Source: a virus. From it: a stretch of 50,095 nt of DNA. Under the pieces are notes generated by a model that saw only the letters and a list, made by a program, of their open reading frames with translations, was not told the DNA's origin and searched no databases. Each line of letters starts with the position of its first letter. Within the stretch, counting starts at the first letter, position 1. Of this stretch, positions 3,571-50,095 are shown in pieces. The translations under genes were made by a program, and so were the position numbers. The stretch is taken from the IMG/VR virus record IMGVR_UViG_3300025117_000089, positions 1 through 50,095 of that record; one strand, given 5' to 3'.

Positions 3571-6500
3571 CTACTTCCCCTGATAAACCGGAACCCCAAA
3601 CTGCGAAGCAACCTGCCTCTGACGAAGGCCAGTAGTTCCGACCTCGCCAAGAACGAGTTTTCGCACCGCAGGCCGCAAGTCGCTCCCGTTGATCGCAAAT
3701 AACGGGAGCTTTGCGTTGAAGGCCGCAATCGCGGCCATCGGCCCCCCAGTATCTTCACTCTCTACGATCGCCTTGGCAGCATCGCGAATGAGCCGGCCTA
3801 TCCTCTCGGAGAGCTGGGTCCCTATCTTGTTCAGACTGCGCTCGGCGCCCTGCGCTTTCGCAACTTCGTCCGGGTTGAAACCGAGGGCCAGCATTAAAAT
3901 GCTATGCTGGTTGATGTCCTCATCCGCAATGAGCTTCTTCCCTGCCCCAGTCTTCAGGCCATCGGACGCAACACGGAAAGCCTTCAGGCCATCCTTCAGA
4001 GGTTTCGGCAAGGCCTCTTCAAGCCCTCGCATGTAGTTTCCTTTGTTCACCATCTGGTCATAGCCCTTAACCCATGACTGCGCGACGGAGAAGCTCGGGC
4101 CGATGAGGTTGCCGGCGTACCACGCAGCAAGCTGCGCTCCGTGCATATTCTCTGGAGGTTCGGAGGAAACCCCGTACAGGTCGCCCATGCCGATGCGTTT
4201 CGAGGCGTTTACGCCGAACGCAGTAGGCAGCCCGTAGGAAAGTATCCCTCCGAATAAGTCGCCGAGCCTCTCATTCGCCCACTTATCAAATTCTAATTCT
4301 GCGTCGTAAGGTTCGTCGTCATCGCCGCCGAAGAGGTTGGCAAGGCCAAAGACAATACCTCCTATTATGGTGCCGTGTACCCCTGCAAGGGCTGCGGACA
4401 TCGCAGTTACGCCCAAAAATTCTTTGAGCGCAGCTCTCCTTACTTCAGGACTTTCTCCTTTCACTGACTGCATCAGTAGGATACCCATCCTGAGAGCGGT
4501 CTTTATCCGGTATGTCTGGAACGTCGTCAGAGTCCTGACGGTATCTCCCTGCATGAACCAGCCCTTGTCGGACTTGGCGTAGTTGTAGAGGGTGCCGCCG
4601 ACGATCTCCGAGGAGTCCTCCAAGGCAGAGAAGAAATCTTTCTTCGCATCCGTCGCCAGTTTGTAGCTCGCCAGTACTGTCGCCTTTCTACTTCCCAGCT
4701 CGCCGTGCTGCATGGGCAGCATCGCGTAGTGCATAGCCCTCCCAAACGCAGTCAACTGGTTTCCCTGGTCGATATCTTGCGCCTCGTGGACGGCGGAGAT
4801 ATCGAGGTCGCCCTTGGCGAGAGACTCACGGAGAGCGAGAAGCTCTCGCTTGTAGTCACCGGCTTCGCCGGTCCCAAGACCTTTTATCTTCTGCAGCATC
4901 TCCGCAGGAGAGAAGAAGTCCTCTCCGAGCCGCCGGTCTCCGACCCTGTTTTTCTCTGTTACCTTCAGGTGCAGGTCTGCGTAAACGCGGTTTACGTCCT
5001 CATCGCCGTACATTGCGTCCTTACTGTACTTCTTGTTGAAGGCTTTCCAAAGACCTTCGGACAGGGCAGCGGTCGCCTTCGGCAGGGACGCGAACTTCCT
5101 CGCCAGGGCAGGGAGCGTAAGGACCGGTAACTGCGTCAGTTGCACCAAGAACGTCGAGGGCGAAGTCATGTAATAGGCAGTACTGAATTTTCCCAATGTT
5201 GACGCGATCGGGCTGACCCGCTCGTTCTTCACGGCCTGGAACCACCTTCTAGCGTCGTTGGCAAGGTGGGTTCTCATATCGGTGTTGATGGCACCTTCCC
5301 GGTCCTTCACCATCCCCTTCGTTTCTTCCTCAAACCCTTGTATATCTTCCTCAATCTTCCTCCCATACTCCATCCACGCGATGGAGCCTGCGTGTCTCAG
5401 GACGTAACCCATTGAGCTGCGGAGCATATCGGTGCTGGCACCGAGAACGTTCTTCCGATGAATCGAGTTCTTCAGGGCGGAGGTCTCCGGCATCCACCGG
5501 AGGATAACCTGGTTCAGGTCGGAGAAAGCGTCGGCTGCTCGGGCTTGCGCTTCGTTCACCGCGCCCGCATCTTCCAGATCAACACCGGTCAGGTACTTCG
5601 CCTCAAGGGCTTTGCCAAGCTGCTCTCGCAGCGCCTGCGGGATAACGGCTTCGCCCTTCTGCGTCTCTCTCTTCACATCTTCGACGAAGGTGTCAGGGTC
5701 TACACCTTGGGCTTCCATCTGCTTGCGGAAGACGCGACGTTCTCCGGGGGAAGTAAAGAACTCAGTCTGCTCCCTGCCATCCTGCGTCGTGAACTTGAGG
5801 ATGTACTCGCCGTACCGCGACAGCGGCACGTAGATGCCCTTCAGCTTGCCGAAAGTTGCATTGAACTGGGTCATGAGCGAAGCACGAAGGCCGGGATTCT
5901 TCTCAGAAGAAGCCTCAATTACTGCGAGGAGATTATTCCTTTCCCGTTCCCGGAGGGACGCCAAATAGTCGACGATCTTTTTGACTTGCTCCTGTTCGGC
6001 AGGCTTCAGTTTATCCCACGCAGTTCTCACTTCCTGGTACGCTTCGGCGAAGGTCTTACCTGTCGACTTCTTCATTCCTTCAGCTTTCCAAGCCTTCTCG
6101 GTATTACTCCGTTGGAGTCCTGCAGGCCCTGACGTATCGAACCAGTCTTGCTCAGTTTCGTCGAGCCAAGGCGTCATCTGGTTGAAGGTCCCAGTGAGGA
6201 GGAGATTATTGAATGCTTCCAGCCCGGAGTTTTTCTTCGCGACAGCTTCCGCATCCTGATAGATGGCGTAGAAATCGTCAGGAAGTTGCGCCTTGATGGC
6301 CTCCATCTTCTTGTTGTGCGTGTCGATGTCTTTCAGCCAGTGGATCTTCTTGCCGAAGGTCTGCGCCAGGTGGGACCTCGGCATTACCGCCAGCCACTGC
6401 GGGGCGTACTTGACATAGATATCACGGAGCCTACTCTTCGGATTCTGCACTGCGTCGAGGATTTGGTCGATCTTCGCCTGCCCTTCTTTCATTTTGTCGG

Positions 6501-9500
6501 AGACAACGGAGAAGAGTTGCTCTGGCTGGTCCAGCCTTGCAAGTATCTTGCTCAGGTCTCCAGTAGGAGCTTGATCCTCAGTCCTTCGAGACCAAGCCTT
6601 CGTCCCCTGTGAAAATAAGGCGACAAGGTCGGACTCCGATAGCCTGCCATGGGCGATGCCGAGTCGGTAGAGAGCGGCCTTGACGGCTGAGATTATTCGT
6701 TTGAAGATGGAGTGTTTCCTGTTTGACTTCTCCTGAAGCCAATACATGAGGGCTTCTTCCCCTCGGAAGCCTTTCGCCGTATCGGATGGGACTTTAGCAA
6801 ACGCCGCCTTGATCGCAGGATTATTCCTTGCGAGAATGGCGAAGTCCTTCAATATCGCCGTCCGCTTGGCACGGAAGACTTTGTCTTCGTTGAGGAGGGC
6901 GTGGCCGGCTTCATGCCGCATTACGTCGACTGCGTCGCCGGGCTTGAGGTTGTCCGAAAAGAGAAAAACTTTTTTCTGGCTGGGGAAGTAAGAGCCGGCT
7001 ATTTCCCCGTTCTTGGAAAAGATAGCAGTGATCTGAATATCTTCATCATTGAAAATGACGTAGTTGTAATTCCCATCACCGGACGAACGGCTTGTGCCGT
7101 CGAGGTATTTGTTTCCCCTAATACCGGTAGAGTGCAAGAACGTAGAGACATCTCGCCGGTAGTTCCCGTCCTCCACTTGTCCAACGTACGGAAGCCCTTC
7201 TTCTACAGCATATTTATTCAGCGCTTGAATAAGTTCTTTTCCTGTCCAGTCCTTAAAATCTGCGTCGAGCCGATCTTCGACCTCGCTTACGTAGTTCTCC
7301 CCAAGAGTATCTTTAATGCCTGGAAGAGCAGCTTTAACTTTCTCGCTTTGCTCGCCCAGCGGTTTATCCCAGAGTAAATATTCGTCCTCGGCGGGGGCTA
7401 GTTCTACTTGGTAGAGTTTTCCTTTGCTGTAAACCTTCTGCGCAGCCGATCGTACGCGGTTGTACAATTCCCGCCCAACCGTTTCTATATAGAATCCGTC
7501 GTGTCCAGCGAGAGTCTTGGCTAGCAGCCCCTGAAGAGCAAATGATTTATCATCTCCCCACCCACCTTCCGCTACCATCTTTGCCCACACCTCGTCAGAG
7601 AGGCCTGGCTCTTTCTCTTCGAATAGTGTAGCATCAATATTCTTCGGAGAAGCAGACAACTTATCCTTATACCACTCAGCAACCTCTCTCGACCCAGCAA
7701 AGTACAAACCGTATCCATAAGCCTGCGCCCCTTCGCCAGTGCCGATCTTCGACGAAGAGAATTTGTCAACGTCGTGCGGCGTACCATGCCAGGCAACCAT
7801 CTTCAGGAACGCTTTTTGCATCTGCTGAGGCAGATCATTCGCGTTGCGAACTACTTCAAGTTTCCCTCTCTTGACGAGGTTGTCGTAGCCCTTGCCGAGG
7901 AAAGATTTCAGGTCCTTCTGAACTTGGGCAGTGAAGCTGCCCTGGCCTGATCGCGAAGCGATACCGCCCTTGGTGGACTGCGCCTGTAACGGCGCTCCGC
8001 TTACGTCAGTCCCAGCCAACTGCGCAGCAATAGATAATGCTTCGCTAAATGCTGAGGCGTGTTTCGACTCAATCCCGAGGACCTGCATGACTTTCTCGAC
8101 GAGGGCGTCCCACGCACTCCGGTACTTCCCTCCGGTCTTGATCTGGGTCGCCTTCAGCACCCCTTGAAATTGGGGGGAGGAGAACGCTTGGGCCAGGAAC
8201 TCCTGCTCGTTGAGGAGGCCGTAGCCGATCTGCTCCATGCCGGACAACTCTCCAGCGAGGAACTTGTTCTTGAAGGTCTTGCTACCGCCGGCAATCTCGA
8301 TGTTCGAGATCGTGTCCTTTGATATAAGCCCAAGCTGAGTAACTTGGACCTTGACCAGCGCCATTACTCCGCGGACCCGCTTCTGCATGTCGGGCCGTAT
8401 TTTCAGTTCGCGAACCGTGACGGAGTGGACCAGTTCGTGCAGCGAGGTCGGAGCGTTCTTCAGATCCTTAACTGTAATCTCATTCTTCCCTGGAGCGTAG
8501 CCCGCAGTTTTCGCTGCCGGGTCAACCTTGACCGCCGACTCAAGCTTCGAGCCTGGGGTGAACGACTTAAGGAAGCCCCCGAGCTTCTTGACATTCTCGT
8601 CCGGAGATTGTTCGAGCGTAGTGAAGAGGTCGCCTGTGGTGATCGTCTGCTTGGTCGCAGTCTTGGAGAGTGTGTCGAGAGCTTCGAAAGAAGCTACTGC
8701 TCCCTTGCCGTCAGGTAATTGAACACCCTCTTGCACAGGAGCAACCACACCCCCTGTGGGGACCTGAGGTACTGGTGTAACGGCTTGATCCCCTTCGAGG
8801 GACTCATCAACAGGTAGAACCTGTTCCGGGACGGTGAACTCATCGTTTACTCCTTGCGCAGCTTCAGCGCTTTGCTCCACAGGAGCAAGGTCTCCTCCAA
8901 AATCAGGGTAGCCACCGGGCCTGTCCTTCCTGTCCATGCGAATACGATACCGAGATCCATCAAGCCGGTCGAAGAGAGGCTCCCCCGCATAATTAGTGCC
9001 TGCCGGCGTATCTTGGGCGGGACTGACAACCTCAGTCAGTCCTTGCGCAGCCTGCTCCGAAGGAGAAGTAGCTTCTCCAGTTCTTGCCTGTTCTTCAGCA
9101 AGGCCCGCTCCTTCCTGGAAAGGAACTGTATTGGCCATCGCAGCCGAACTCGTCCGAGTAAGATCATCTTCCCTCCTTAGGTCCTCCTGGACCTGCAATC
9201 GGTCAAAAGCTACGCGTCGCTTGCGGACATCAGCTTCGTCCTGCACTGCTTGCGCAGAGTCCGCCAGATCGTAAAGTGTGTCGTTTATTACTGACTCGTC
9301 TATCGTCTCTTCTTTCCCTGCGAGGACTTCTTCGAGGTTGCCTGCCGCTACTGCGGCGGCTGCATCGCTTACAGCGATGTCTACCGTGCGGTCTCCGACC
9401 GTGACAGTGGCTACGCCATCTTCGACTTTGTCGATCTTCACCTCATCCGAGGTGGCCTGGTTAAGTGTTTCCGCTTGCACGGTGTTCGTCGCCTGCGCTG

Positions 9501-10665
9501 CGGGCTCTGCTTCCTCTCTGATGACGTTCGCAACTCTTCTTATTGGAAGCCCTGCGGCGATGTCTTCTTTCGCCCCAACCAGCCACTGATCAGCATCCGG
9601 TACCTTATTTGCTACAGCCTGCTTGTGGAGTTCATCTACGACGGCTTGTCGTTGCTCCGGCGTTGCCGACGTAGGATCTTCGATTATGGTGTTTACGGCT
9701 TTTGCGCTTCTCGCATTGCTGTAGTTCGCATGAAGTCCGAATGGAGCAAGGAACGCAGTCATGCCGAGGGTAGGACCGACGACGGCTTTCATTTGTTCAA
9801 GCGGAGAGACATCAACGCCCGCTTCTCGTTCTACGCTTGCCTGCAGTCCGGCCTGGCCGATCTCAGTTCCTACTTCGCCGACGGCGGTATTCACAAGCCC
9901 TTTGGCGAACGGTTTCCATACTGCGGCATCTGTCGCCGCTTTGATCGTACCGGCGACTGTCGGCGCTGCGGCCTTACCGAGAGTCTTACCAGCCAGACCT
10001 GCGAACTTCCCGCCTATGGCGGTTCCAGCAAACTCGCCCAGTCCCTCAATAAATAGGTTCTTCCAGCCGGCTACTCTGGCTACTTCATCCGAAGCGCCTG
10101 CGCCTTGGACGGACTCCAGGGTCTGCTGACCTGCTTGCATTGCCGCAGGTACTGCGCCAATAGCGGAGGACGTTACGAGCGGAGCGAGTTTGCTTACCGC
10201 CTGAACTACCTTCGGCGCAAGACGCAGTGCGGTAGCTGCACCGCCGGCAAGAGCACTGGCTCCAACTGCTTCGGGAAGAAGGGCAAGCCCCGCTGCGACC
10301 GCCAGCGGCGGGGCGAGCGACGGAGCGAGCATACTACCGCCTTCGGCCAGGGCATTGACTACAGCCCCGTGTTCCTCAGGGCGAAGTTTGTTCTCAGGCA
10401 ACTCCTGCCGAGCCTTGGCGGCGTCGGCGATGGACTTCCCTGCCTCATAGACTCCTTGCCGGAAGCCTCCACCAGTAGGCTCTCCGAGCCACTGGAGGGA
10501 CTGTCCCGCCATAAGCGGCACTCCCTCAGTTACGCCGGTACGGAGCCCGGTGCCGATCTCTCCGAGTGCGGAGCGAGGTTTCTGGCGGATGCCTGCTGCC
10601 GGGGCGAGCAAGGCATCGAATGTGCCGCCGCTAGGAGGTGCGAGAAGATCGTCGAAATCAGCCAT
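3571..10665 (-). CDS. 2364-aa polyvalent internal virion (ejection) protein with two HExxH motifs and an ADP-ribosyltransferase-like domain
   Basis: This is the last gene of the late operon and the largest. Visible parts in order: a short degenerate N-terminal repeat (DDLLAPPSGGTFDALLAPAAG); an Ala-rich hydrophobic region (about 110-310); a Pro/Gln/Glu linker (about 390-660); a zincin-like motif HELVH at 743-747; an ART-like domain from about 957 (AWHGTPHDVDKF, then GTGEGAQAYGYGLYFA) to NDEDIQI near 1210; a second zincin motif HEAGH at 1251-1255; and a helical C-terminal half with a hydrophobic stretch near 2070 (MSAALAGVHGTIIGGIVFGL). Such large polyvalent proteins are packaged and ejected with phage DNA. 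The enzymatic parts could act on peptidoglycan, host proteins or self-processing (inference). The start TAATG overlaps the upstream stop. Confidence 0.85.
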   Translation of the reverse strand: MADFDDLLAPPSGGTFDALLAPAAGIRQKPRSALGEIGTGLRTGVTEGVPLMAGQSLQWLGEPTGGGFRQGVYEAGKSIADAAKARQELPENKLRPEEHGAVVNALAEGGSMLAPSLAPPLAVAAGLALLPEAVGASALAGGAATALRLAPKVVQAVSKLAPLVTSSAIGAVPAAMQAGQQTLESVQGAGASDEVARVAGWKNLFIEGLGEFAGTAIGGKFAGLAGKTLGKAAAPTVAGTIKAATDAAVWKPFAKGLVNTAVGEVGTEIGQAGLQASVEREAGVDVSPLEQMKAVVGPTLGMTAFLAPFGLHANYSNARSAKAVNTIIEDPTSATPEQRQAVVDELHKQAVANKVPDADQWLVGAKEDIAAGLPIRRVANVIREEAEPAAQATNTVQAETLNQATSDEVKIDKVEDGVATVTVGDRTVDIAVSDAAAAVAAGNLEEVLAGKEETIDESVINDTLYDLADSAQAVQDEADVRKRRVAFDRLQVQEDLRREDDLTRTSSAAMANTVPFQEGAGLAEEQARTGEATSPSEQAAQGLTEVVSPAQDTPAGTNYAGEPLFDRLDGSRYRIRMDRKDRPGGYPDFGGDLAPVEQSAEAAQGVNDEFTVPEQVLPVDESLEGDQAVTPVPQVPTGGVVAPVQEGVQLPDGKGAVASFEALDTLSKTATKQTITTGDLFTTLEQSPDENVKKLGGFLKSFTPGSKLESAVKVDPAAKTAGYAPGKNEITVKDLKNAPTSLHELVHSVTVRELKIRPDMQKRVRGVMALVKVQVTQLGLISKDTISNIEIAGGSKTFKNKFLAGELSGMEQIGYGLLNEQEFLAQAFSSPQFQGVLKATQIKTGGKYRSAWDALVEKVMQVLGIESKHASAFSEALSIAAQLAGTDVSGAPLQAQSTKGGIASRSGQGSFTAQVQKDLKSFLGKGYDNLVKRGKLEVVRNANDLPQQMQKAFLKMVAWHGTPHDVDKFSSSKIGTGEGAQAYGYGLYFAGSREVAEWYKDKLSASPKNIDATLFEEKEPGLSDEVWAKMVAEGGWGDDKSFALQGLLAKTLAGHDGFYIETVGRELYNRVRSAAQKVYSKGKLYQVELAPAEDEYLLWDKPLGEQSEKVKAALPGIKDTLGENYVSEVEDRLDADFKDWTGKELIQALNKYAVEEGLPYVGQVEDGNYRRDVSTFLHSTGIRGNKYLDGTSRSSGDGNYNYVIFNDEDIQITAIFSKNGEIAGSYFPSQKKVFLFSDNLKPGDAVDVMRHEAGHALLNEDKVFRAKRTAILKDFAILARNNPAIKAAFAKVPSDTAKGFRGEEALMYWLQEKSNRKHSIFKRIISAVKAALYRLGIAHGRLSESDLVALFSQGTKAWSRRTEDQAPTGDLSKILARLDQPEQLFSVVSDKMKEGQAKIDQILDAVQNPKSRLRDIYVKYAPQWLAVMPRSHLAQTFGKKIHWLKDIDTHNKKMEAIKAQLPDDFYAIYQDAEAVAKKNSGLEAFNNLLLTGTFNQMTPWLDETEQDWFDTSGPAGLQRSNTEKAWKAEGMKKSTGKTFAEAYQEVRTAWDKLKPAEQEQVKKIVDYLASLRERERNNLLAVIEASSEKNPGLRASLMTQFNATFGKLKGIYVPLSRYGEYILKFTTQDGREQTEFFTSPGERRVFRKQMEAQGVDPDTFVEDVKRETQKGEAVIPQALREQLGKALEAKYLTGVDLEDAGAVNEAQARAADAFSDLNQVILRWMPETSALKNSIHRKNVLGASTDMLRSSMGYVLRHAGSIAWMEYGRKIEEDIQGFEEETKGMVKDREGAINTDMRTHLANDARRWFQAVKNERVSPIASTLGKFSTAYYMTSPSTFLVQLTQLPVLTLPALARKFASLPKATAALSEGLWKAFNKKYSKDAMYGDEDVNRVYADLHLKVTEKNRVGDRRLGEDFFSPAEMLQKIKGLGTGEAGDYKRELLALRESLAKGDLDISAVHEAQDIDQGNQLTAFGRAMHYAMLPMQHGELGSRKATVLASYKLATDAKKDFFSALEDSSEIVGGTLYNYAKSDKGWFMQGDTVRTLTTFQTYRIKTALRMGILLMQSVKGESPEVRRAALKEFLGVTAMSAALAGVHGTIIGGIVFGLANLFGGDDDEPYDAELEFDKWANERLGDLFGGILSYGLPTAFGVNASKRIGMGDLYGVSSEPPENMHGAQLAAWYAGNLIGPSFSVAQSWVKGYDQMVNKGNYMRGLEEALPKPLKDGLKAFRVASDGLKTGAGKKLIADEDINQHSILMLALGFNPDEVAKAQGAERSLNKIGTQLSERIGRLIRDAAKAIVESEDTGGPMAAIAAFNAKLPLFAINGSDLRPAVRKLVLGEVGTTGLRQRQVASQFGVPVYQGK

Positions 10666-47282: not shown

Positions 47283-47810
47283 ATGGATTACTTATACTTA
47301 GCCGCTGTAGATATAGCTAGGCGAGCGCACGAAGGACAACTACGTAAATACACTGGGGAGCCGTATTTAGTACACCCATTCGCAGTCGCCGGACTTGTTG
47401 CATCAGTATCGGCGGACGACGACATGATCGTTGCAGCGATATTGCACGATGTTGTTGAAGACAGCGCGATAAGTCTACACACAATTAACGGCGTATTTGG
47501 ACAGCGTATCGCTTTGCTGGTAGAGGACCTTACCGATGTCTCCAGACCGTCCGACGGAAACCGTGCCGTAAGGAGAGCAATCGACCGAGCGCACACAACC
47601 AGCGCTTGCGTGGAGGCGAAGACTATTAAGCTCGCCGACCTGATTGACAACACTAAGAGTATCGTCGCGTTCGATCCCGAGTTTGCCAAAATTTACATGG
47701 CTGAGAAACGGCTCTTGCTGAAAGTTCTGAGGGACGGCGACCCTGTACTTTTTGCTCTTGCGGACAAGTTGGTGCAAGACTACTTCCTGACCCACGAGGC
47801 GCGGGTATGA
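47283..47810 (+). CDS. HD-domain (p)ppGpp hydrolase, SpoT/MESH1-like, 175 aa
   Basis: The motifs RKYTGEPYLVHPFAVAGLVA (His31), DDDMIVAAILHDVVEDSAIS (HD at 55-56) and KTIKLADLIDNTKSI match the hydrolase domain of SpoT/MESH1, which removes pyrophosphate from ppGpp using a metal ion. The synthetase domain is absent. It would lower the stringent signal so host replication and translation precursors stay available (inference). The stop overlaps the polymerase ATG as ATGA, so expression is coupled. GAGGAGGGTTTAAAA before the ATG. Confidence 0.88.
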   Translation: MDYLYLAAVDIARRAHEGQLRKYTGEPYLVHPFAVAGLVASVSADDDMIVAAILHDVVEDSAISLHTINGVFGQRIALLVEDLTDVSRPSDGNRAVRRAIDRAHTTSACVEAKTIKLADLIDNTKSIVAFDPEFAKIYMAEKRLLLKVLRDGDPVLFALADKLVQDYFLTHEARV

Positions 47811-49294
47811 CCCTAGTACGTACCGTACTTGATTTTGAATCGGCATATGGAAAACATCCGGTGACAGGGGAGAACATCACCTTGTCTAAGATGACCTGCG
47901 AGGAGTACGTCCGGCATCCGAAGTTCAAAGCCCACGGCCTCGGGGTTAAGATTGGCAAGGAGAAAGCCTTTTATCTCTACAAGCCCGCCGACCTCGTCGC
48001 GTTCCTGAAGGAACACCCATGGGCGAAGTCCTACGTGATCTGTCACCACACACATTTTGACGGGGCCATACTCTCCTGGCGGTGCGGAATAAAGCCCGCG
48101 TTTTGGGGCTGTACTTTGTCCATGGCAAGGGCCATCTTCCCGCACGAGTCCTCCAGCTTGGCAAACATTGCGAAGCTCTTGGGCGTCGGAGAGAAAGGCA
48201 CCGAGCTTGTTCACTTCCAAGGGAAATGGCATCTGACGGACGACGAGCAGAGGATCATGGGCGGCTACTGCATGAATGATGTCGAGCTTACCTCCGACAT
48301 TTTTGACGCATTGAAGGGGCAGTTTCCTCCTTCTGAGCTGAGGCTTATTGACCTCACTGTCCGTCTTTTTACCGAACCCGCGCTCGCGGTGGAGCGCGGG
48401 GTACTCATCGAAGAGTACAAGCGGGAGCGGCGCAGCAAGCGAGCGTTACTCAAGGCGTGCAACACGGATAAAACGGTGCTCGCCTCCGGCGACAAGTTCG
48501 CGGAGTTGCTTCTGACTCTCGGAGTAGACCCGCCGAAGAAACTCAGTCCTTCGAAGGTAAAGGACGGGCGGGTGGACCCGGATAGTGCAGGCGAAGCCCC
48601 ACTTGGCTTGCTACCATCGTTCAAACTCCCAGTAGGCGCCGGGCTATTTCTTTCGAAGGACGAGATGATCTCAGAGCGGGTGAGGCTGAAAGCCGAGAAG
48701 GATGTCTACCCATGGGCCTACGCTTTCGGCAAAAGCGACGAAGCGTTCAAGATGCTACTCGACCACCCAGACCCGCAGGTTCAGGCAGTAGTTGAGGCCC
48801 GCCTCGGGGTGAAGTCCACGATCAAGGAGACCAGGAGCAAGCGGTTTTATAAGATCGGTAAGCGAGGGCGGTTCCCAGTGTATCACAACTACTACGGTGC
48901 GAGGACTGGCAGGGACTGTCTAACTGGGGACACTCGCATTTATGTGTTGCGCTATTGCAAGGTTATTGGTATACTCCTTCCAGACCTTCGTCCCAATGAC
49001 TTAGTATGGGACGGGGAAGAGTTCGTAGCCCACGGCGGGCTTGCATATCGGGGAAAACAGGAGGTAATTACTTATGACGGGATCACAGGAACGCTCGCAC
49101 ACCAAGTATTCTGCGAAGAAACACCAACCGCGATCGCTCTATCTGCAGCAGCAGCGCGCGGTTACAAAATCAAAGCTGCAGCGCCACCTCCAGGCTACGC
49201 CGGAGCTGCAGATGCTGTCGTCAGTGGAGGAGCTGCTGAACCAGCGAAGCAAGATGCTGTTCAGATGCAAGTGTGGGAAGGATTTTCGGTCTAG
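47807..49294 (+). CDS. DNA polymerase I (family A), N-terminal part fused to N-terminal split-intein half, 495 aa
   Basis: Residues 1-170 form a DnaQ-like 3'-5' exonuclease: DFES at 9-12, HHTHFDGAIL and YCMNDVELTSD (ExoI to ExoIII). Then a helical thumb region leads to FPVYHNYYGARTGRD at residue 370. At Cys371 (base 48917) an intein begins: CLTGDTRIYV, then NDLVWDGEEFVAHGG, ITYDGITGTLAHQVFCEE (block B) and IALSAAAARGYKI. The frame ends 125 residues into the intein with an Ala-rich tail. The polymerase catalytic motifs A to C are missing from this ORF; motif A is in the third ORF (49837 onward). It is coupled to the (p)ppGpp hydrolase by ATGA. Confidence 0.9.
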   Translation: MTLVRTVLDFESAYGKHPVTGENITLSKMTCEEYVRHPKFKAHGLGVKIGKEKAFYLYKPADLVAFLKEHPWAKSYVICHHTHFDGAILSWRCGIKPAFWGCTLSMARAIFPHESSSLANIAKLLGVGEKGTELVHFQGKWHLTDDEQRIMGGYCMNDVELTSDIFDALKGQFPPSELRLIDLTVRLFTEPALAVERGVLIEEYKRERRSKRALLKACNTDKTVLASGDKFAELLLTLGVDPPKKLSPSKVKDGRVDPDSAGEAPLGLLPSFKLPVGAGLFLSKDEMISERVRLKAEKDVYPWAYAFGKSDEAFKMLLDHPDPQVQAVVEARLGVKSTIKETRSKRFYKIGKRGRFPVYHNYYGARTGRDCLTGDTRIYVLRYCKVIGILLPDLRPNDLVWDGEEFVAHGGLAYRGKQEVITYDGITGTLAHQVFCEETPTAIALSAAAARGYKIKAAAPPPGYAGAADAVVSGGAAEPAKQDAVQMQVWEGFSV

Positions 49295-49868
49295 ACCGTC
49301 CGACATGATCCGGACGAAGCAGTCTTCGTGTTTCGGATGCAGCCGCAAGCGAGTAATGGCGGCTCTAGTGCGGACTGAGGAATGGCGGGCGCACCACAAG
49401 AAGATGAACAGCCGCGCGTTAGAGGCGAATACGAAAGATCCTGTGTACGTGGCGCTACGGCGGCGATGCAACAGCGCTAAGGCGCGGTGCTGCACCACTA
49501 CTGACAGGCGGTATCCATATTACGGTGGCAGAGGCATCGAGTTTCGTTTCTCCTCCCCTGTGGCTATGGCAGAGTGGGTGCTAGAGTACTTAGGTCCGCC
49601 CCCCGCTGGGTGCTCCGTAGACCGAGAGGACAACAACGGGCATTACGAGCCGGGTAACTTGCGATGGGCCACGGCTAAGACGCAGAATAATAACAAACGG
49701 GAGTACGCTGTAGGTGATTATGGGGCTAGAGTGCGGCTGATGCGGGAGGCTAGGCCCGACTACAGCGAGCAAAATATACGAGCCTTGATTCGCTCGGGCC
49801 TTACTGACGAAGAAATCGTAAACAGGAGGAAGTGGGATGGCTGCGGCCGATACATACGACATTCTTGA
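49212..49868 (+). CDS. Free-standing HNH endonuclease inside the split intein, 218 aa
   Basis: I place the start at ATG 49212, with CCGGAG 7 nt upstream; the frame is open further up but looks like a shadow of the intein frame. An N-terminal zinc finger (FRCKCGKDFRSRPSDMIRTK, then SCFGC) is followed by helices and an HNH-type segment YYGGRGIEFRFSSPVAMAEW, then SVDREDNNGHYEPGNLRWATAK, with His and Asn at the metal site. The frame differs from both intein halves and overlaps each (49212-49294 and 49837-49868). It would cut polymerase alleles without the intein, driving homing (inference). Confidence 0.85.
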   Translation: MLSSVEELLNQRSKMLFRCKCGKDFRSRPSDMIRTKQSSCFGCSRKRVMAALVRTEEWRAHHKKMNSRALEANTKDPVYVALRRRCNSAKARCCTTTDRRYPYYGGRGIEFRFSSPVAMAEWVLEYLGPPPAGCSVDREDNNGHYEPGNLRWATAKTQNNNKREYAVGDYGARVRLMREARPDYSEQNIRALIRSGLTDEEIVNRRKWDGCGRYIRHS

Positions 49869-50095
49869 TTGTGGTCCGCGAAATAGGTTCGCCGCCAACG
49901 GCAAGTTGGTCCACAACAGCGGCGGGGACAAGCAGAACACGACTAACCTAAATCGTGTGAACCCAAAAGACCCAACGTCCGGTGCCCTCCGGCGCTCACT
50001 GCACGCTATTCCCGGCCACACCTTAGTGGTTCGCGACCTTGGGCAGATCGAGGCGCGGAAACTCGCCTATACGGCAGGACAAGAAGACCTCCTAG
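49837..50095 (+). CDS. C-terminal split-intein half fused to C-terminal DNA polymerase (partial, runs off the window)
   Basis: ATG 49837 has AGGAGGAAGTGGG directly upstream. The product begins MAAADTYDILDCGPRNRFAA and NGKLVHN: intein blocks F and G, ending in His-Asn at 26-27, then Ser+1 (AGC 49918). The extein continues SGGDKQNTTNLNR and HTLVVRDLGQIEARKLAYTA, which is family A polymerase motif A with its catalytic Asp. The frame is open to the window end. Trans-splicing with the ORF at 47807 would restore RTGRD-SGGDKQN, a normal polymerase I junction. Confidence 0.9.
   Translation, partial: MAAADTYDILDCGPRNRFAANGKLVHNSGGDKQNTTNLNRVNPKDPTSGALRRSLHAIPGHTLVVRDLGQIEARKLAYTAGQEDLL

Follow-up and report, generated by a model that had tools for sequence, protein, structure and literature searches.

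How would a phage make its replicative DNA polymerase from a gene that lies in pieces, in three different reading frames? This question is raised by the end of IMGVR_UViG_3300025117_000089, a whole IMG/VR virus record of 50,095 bp classed as linear (hereafter, the window), where a single family A DNA polymerase gene is replaced by three overlapping open reading frames (ORFs). We examined this locus and its relatives and conclude that the family A polymerase of this phage very probably carries an intein that is mobile, naturally split and trans-splicing, which makes the locus a "fractured gene" in PolA.

Three ORFs in three frames take the place of one polymerase gene

A first-pass annotation, made from the letters alone, had described an N-terminal half with exonuclease, RTGRD, the intein start CLTGDT and block B (ORF1), an HNH endonuclease (ORF2) and a C-terminal half with its own Shine-Dalgarno (SD) sequence and ATG, the intein end VHN, Ser+1 and polymerase motif A (ORF3), in frames 2, 0 and 1. 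The three ORFs are present as described, with an exonuclease-type N-half (Table 1).

Table 1. Features of the split polymerase locus, in window coordinates
Feature	Position	Strand	Frame	Content
ORF1	47807-49294	+	2	N-extein plus the intein part of the N-half (IntN)
N-extein	47807-48916	+		370 amino acids (aa); exonuclease region and N part of family A polymerase; ends RTGRD
Intein element	48917-49917			1001 nucleotides (nt), Cys1 to Asn
IntN	48917-49294	+		125 aa from Cys1 (CLTGDT...TLAH); stop codon 49292-49294
SD sequence of ORF2	49059-49064	+		AGGAGG, 9 nt ahead of the ATG, within the IntN gene
ORF2	49074-49868	+	0	HNH endonuclease, 264 aa; zinc-finger-like CxC/CxxC
Block B	49091-49102	+		T-L-A-H, within IntN
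In-frame stop upstream of ORF3	49819-49821	+		Seals the ORF3 frame off from the preceding sequence (translation, stop list)
SD sequence of ORF3	49824-49829	+		AGGAGG, 7 nt ahead of the ATG at 49837
ORF3	49837 to contig end	+	1	Intein part of the C-half (IntC, 27 aa) plus polymerase domain
IntC	49837-49917	+		27 aa, KLVHN at the end; terminal Asn 49915-49917
C-extein start	49918-50095	+		Ser+1, SGGDKQN, motif A DLGQIEAR; cut by the contig end, whole C-extein in L001:6455-7540

ORF1 matches the PHROG_17 DNA polymerase profile (2.1e-15), and its N-half has a match to Pfam DNA_pol_A_exo1 (PF01612; E 0.003) that falls short of the curated cut-off, the DxE and YxxxD motifs being visible. ORF3 matches DNA polymerases in PHROG at 4.4e-6, and the C-half profile matches the Taq and Klenow polymerases from 2.5e-27. 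Since the record ends there, ORF3 is incomplete in the window; it is complete, with 388 aa, in L001 (IMGVR 3300002097_000306), which matches the final 6632 nt of the window at 100% identity and in which PF00476 lies above its cut-off. ORF2 is an HNH endonuclease, as had been proposed (best PHROG HNH family, E 2.1e-26), and its HNH core is conserved in alignment A3. It had also been described as free-standing between the halves; it is a gene of its own but does not lie cleanly between them, as it shares 221 nt with ORF1 and 32 nt with ORF3.

Between the two halves, the ORF1 frame and the ORF3 frame alike hold many stops, and hence simple read-through linking the halves is excluded, in agreement with the first-pass annotation. 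A contiguous intein broken by one frameshift was ruled out on the same many stops in both frames.

Intein-free relatives define the junction

We then compared the locus with relatives that have an intact polymerase. L002, L003, L004, L005 and L008 each carry a single, intein-free polymerase ORF reading TGRD-SGGDKQN, and the N-extein of the window aligns with the intact polA of L002. The predicted spliced product (370 + 361 = 731 aa) has the same length as the L002 protein and differs from it at 13 positions, every one in the N-half. The junction is RTGRD-SGGDKQN exactly as predicted, with L002 providing the empty site.

The split layout is shared by 46 distinct loci

Searches of viral contigs with IntN gave first 27 and then 101 relatives, of which 80 were kept, and the loci were classified with profiles built in this analysis. 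Split polA genes were found at 46 distinct loci, "distinct" meaning a difference in the first 300 nt of IntN, with some loci still close to one another. In these loci the break falls in or close to the conserved TGR region, the break point that had been noticed in the window. Cys1 is present in 45 of the 46 (the remaining record is cut by the contig end there), the T..H of block B in 45, and the terminal Asn in all of them, 43 times as HN and three times as SN; the +1 residue is Ser in 40 and Cys in six. Motif C is found throughout, and motif A in 45 loci, the exception having a second intein at that place.

The gene arrangement is equally regular. The element measures 989-1035 nt in most split loci, and a start codon precedes IntC in every one, exactly 26 codons before the junction in 34. 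An SD-like motif accompanies this start in 43/46 loci, compared to a background of 18.7% for ATGs in general. Among the 43 loci with an HNH match, 42 have this gene in +1 with respect to the IntN frame. In the overlap region, 133 stops were counted in 2001 codons of the third frame; the remaining two frames have none, in part by construction. Because it is shared by 46 distinct loci, the layout is stable and reflects neither chance nor error.

These data bear on three alternatives. A sequencing or assembly error in one continuous gene might be suspected, as the contigs are metagenomic and the 1001-nt element is not a multiple of three, but its probability is negligible: the L001 sequence is identical, the 46 diverged loci are alike and each frame has many stops rather than one. 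An assembly frameshift was ruled out by the L001 identity together with the 46 loci. Programmed frameshifting or bypass, fusing the ORFs into one polypeptide, could in principle work with two shifts, since most loci have their frames in the order N, +1, +2. It is scarcely credible, however, since it would need either these two shifts or a bypass of about 500 nt, while the frame relation differs among loci (+2, 0, +1), every ORF has its own start and SD sequence, and the long overlaps make shifts unnecessary; a fusion would also place the HNH endonuclease inside the intein.

The third alternative is that the polymerase was recently broken and is non-functional, decaying after the insertion while another phage polymerase or that of the host replicates the genome. 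At the DNA level, no diverged sister of the window copy shares its insert, and the record of the window is not complete. What speaks against decay is that the arrangement is conserved over the 46 distinct loci with the catalytic motifs intact, and that searches of the window, L001, L002 and ten additional records, some 50-66 kb long, gave neither a PolB nor a Pol III alpha. A second PolA was not found either, the PolA matches representing one locus per record where searched, in records that may be incomplete. We consider decay very unlikely, and replication by a host polymerase is conceivable.

In three split loci (L098, L060 and L071), the HNH gene is lost or is only a remnant, and the polymerase is still split. 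In L104 (5192-6109) and L109, a different ORF lies between the halves instead of the HNH gene, and its start resembles that of a GIY-YIG endonuclease by eye. In L071 (5518-7419), L034, L038, L089 and L112, the C-half carries a second, contiguous intein behind the split one, itself overlapping an endonuclease gene in another frame (dual-coding, see below), and therefore the polymerase would need one trans- plus one cis-splicing event.

The inserted element has the features of an intein

The window has the residues of a class 1 intein, namely Cys1, the block B TLAH and a terminal HN followed by Ser. IntN is conserved across the 12-member alignment A1, and IntC in alignment A2. By sequence, the split IntN alignment alone gives no Pfam or PDB intein match. 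Contiguous mini-inteins match this alignment with 99.8% probability in a profile comparison, and they weakly match known inteins (Pfam Hint_2, 0.0064; TIGR01445, 0.039; in the PDB, NEQ068, 0.02, and Spl DnaX, 0.028). One contiguous relative was modelled with AlphaFold2 (predicted local distance difference test, pLDDT, 75). A fold search of the PDB with this model ranks the gp41-1 intein first (E 6.2e-5), and its leading matches are inteins or intein-like domains. Opposite charge of IntN and IntC is typical of natural split inteins, and IntN is acidic and IntC basic in 42/46 split loci. A group I intron was ruled out as the insert, there being no Rfam match at E up to 1 across 47500-50095.

Several observations weigh against a split, trans-splicing intein. 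The window IntN alone finds no known intein directly by sequence in Pfam, NCBIfam or the PDB. Its IntC carries a slight negative charge (-0.4), in contrast to that of most family members, and at 26-27 aa the IntC is short, the well-studied split inteins having an IntC of 35-40 aa. L001 possibly comes from a related sample and hence is not fully independent of the window. Finally, every split case is a virus contig from IMG/VR, and three IntN queries found no split layout in the cultured phages of INPHARED, where those matches that were opened, only some of the total, are contiguous.

In summary, the trans-splicing proposed by the first-pass annotation remains the most probable reading, on the strength of the exact junction at empty sites, the splicing and polymerase residues of 46 loci, the separate starts, the Hint fold of contiguous relatives and the failure to find a group I intron or, in the records searched, a second polymerase.

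The element is under purifying selection and appears to move between phages

We next looked at selection and mobility. The ratio of non-synonymous to synonymous divergence (dN/dS) in IntN is 0.10-0.25 in most pairs and 0.54 in one, and IntN is thus under purifying selection. In 74/74 locus pairs, the part of IntN without HNH sequence exceeds both flanks in similarity, as does the whole element in 65 of the 74; protein constraint on IntN explains part of the similarity of IntN over the flanks. L078 and L089 have elements with 94% identity between flanks with only 71-75%, and the dS of IntN is 0.28 in this pair compared to 2.4 or saturation in the exteins. The window and L002 share 89% identity in the N-extein but 98% in the 3.46 kb that follow the site on its right, where divergence is near zero for about 3.1 kb; as the divergence drops there, a recombination edge lies at or near the insertion site. 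The element is sporadically present among relatives. These signs of horizontal transfer, as expected of homing, indicate that the cassette moves between phages.

The constraint on IntN also bears on the possibility that the genes are in pieces without splicing, the halves assembling non-covalently into an active polymerase and the intein parts being inert or cleaved off. Precedents are the split NrdA of phage Aeh1 and, in Aeromonas phage 25, the pair 43A/43B, for which polymerase activity co-purifies with the gene products (PMC2988022). However, all splicing residues persist across the 46 distinct and diverged loci, even those that have lost the endonuclease, and IntN is under purifying selection. 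An inert intein remnant would not keep its splicing residues and is therefore disfavoured; we regard non-covalent assembly as unlikely.

With a split intein, the N-half (exonuclease region and IntN) and the C-half (IntC and polymerase domain) would be translated separately. IntN and IntC would then associate and trans-splice by attack of Cys1, transfer to Ser+1 and cyclisation of the terminal Asn, which would yield an uninterrupted polymerase of the length given above. The HNH endonuclease would be made from a separate start that lies within the IntN gene, its reading frame extending into the IntC gene, and would cut intein-free polA near the insertion site, leading to copying of the whole cassette (homing). 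We infer splicing, cutting of polA by the endonuclease and replication of the phage by the spliced enzyme.

Dual-coding relatives suggest a possible route to the split inteins

In 31 distinct contiguous inteins of the wider clade, an HNH gene lies in the +1 or +2 frame while the intein frame is open. The HNH gene spans 500-880 nt of the intein, and these dual-coding cases are mostly polymerase inteins, with a few in other genes (they include L007:7681-8550, L034, L035, L038, L039-L044, L046, L047, L053, L059, L071 and others). A contiguous intein with its HNH gene in the intein frame was not encountered. As contiguity was the selection criterion, zero stops hold by definition and only the probability per case against synonymous shuffles is informative: with synonymous-codon shuffles of the HNH genes, about 207 stops were expected in the intein frame and 0 observed, and the cases are individually unlikely, 30 of the 31 having P below 0.05; the third frame holds 449 stops. 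In a model of L007, confidence is high at both intein ends (pLDDT 93-97) and falls under 50 over most of the part that faces the HNH gene; a fold search with this model gives weak matches, the best being gp41-1 (E 0.0078).

In a tree, the window groups with the split L023 and L057 and the dual-coding L059 (support 99/92). The free tree needs several changes, but a single clade of split inteins is not rejected (approximately unbiased (AU) test, p 0.096), and we therefore claim no number of origins for the splitting. The dual-coding inteins are plausible intermediates toward splitting. We tentatively suggest, giving it slightly less than an even chance, that the split inteins of the clade arise by out-of-frame overprinting: a mini-intein would become a dual-coding, cis-splicing HNH intein, a stop and an internal start would turn this into a trans-splicing split intein, and the endonuclease might then be lost with the intein still split. 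We infer this path from mini-intein through dual-coding to split, with a direction that is tentative.

In L117 (1057-4551, Vibrio phage 97.13) and L119 (APSE-1 P45/P46), a contiguous polymerase contains an IntN-like sequence with an HNH gene within it in another frame. In L010 (3504-4436, Moraxella phage Mcat20), a mini-intein of the same clade is preceded by a ThyX-like sequence and followed by a different domain, and its host ORF looks chimeric.

Neighbouring genes

Upstream, the polymerase adjoins an HD_4 domain protein, SpoT/Mesh1-like by family (47283-47810 of the window, 4.9e-19). Directly 3′ of the polymerase, L001 encodes an RtcB RNA ligase (L001:7780-8973, 5e-112), followed by a PD-(D/E)XK nuclease. 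Elsewhere, the minus strand of the window encodes an alpha/beta hydrolase with PHB_depo_C and DUF3141 matches, an unusual phage cargo (30779-31726), and a polyvalent protein of 2364 aa (3571-10665) with LPD39 and ART-PolyVal-like matches under their cut-offs.

Significance and comparison with known systems

If the trans-splicing reading is true, a widespread phage group makes its only detected replicative polymerase by protein trans-splicing, and hence its replication would depend on two proteins meeting. The family would also add dozens of natural split inteins to those known; their IntC is very short, and they might serve in protein ligation. As mini, dual-coding and split forms occur side by side in related polymerases, the way in which split inteins originate can be tested directly. 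As far as the literature we examined goes, the following are new, with priority unproven: a family A polymerase as the host, a family of such breadth, the three-way overlap and dual-coding in relatives.

Fractured genes with split inteins and free-standing endonucleases were reportedly described by Dassa et al. in 2009, gp41-1 being the best-known example. The locus resembles these, which are found mainly in phages, in that a split intein interrupts a conserved enzyme gene and an endonuclease gene sits at the break, and the gp41-1 intein is the nearest solved structure to a contiguous relative in our set. It differs in its family A polymerase host gene, in the HNH gene that overlaps both halves in other frames and in its IntC of 26-27 aa. 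The annotation had rightly placed the locus with split inteins of this kind known from other proteins, but a polymerase is not without precedent: in Pseudomonas jumbo phage MIJ3, PolB is reported to be split, with an HNH ORF lying between its two parts (PMC6892783). There, too, a replicative phage polymerase is encoded in two genes with a split intein, but it is of family B and a single case, with an intein similar to that of phage SCTP-2 and no family-wide survey.

In T4-like phages, enzyme genes are split without splicing (PMC2988022). NrdA of Aeh1 and 43A/43B of Aeromonas phage 25 are likewise essential phage enzymes, a polymerase among them, split at homing-endonuclease insertions, whereas they contain no intein and their parts assemble non-covalently (PMC2988022). 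Phage ShiLan carries an out-of-frame HNH gene in a non-intein insert (PMC11855218). Like our dual-coding relatives, it hides the HNH gene in another frame of an insert that is open in the host frame, but no intein splicing domain was detected there, whereas true intein ends flank the hidden HNH gene here. Finally, in APSE-1 P45/P46 and Vibrio phage 97.13, as in the window, a phage polymerase contains IntN-like sequence within which an HNH gene lies in a different frame; they differ from the window in that their polymerase ORF is contiguous, acting in cis, and not split.
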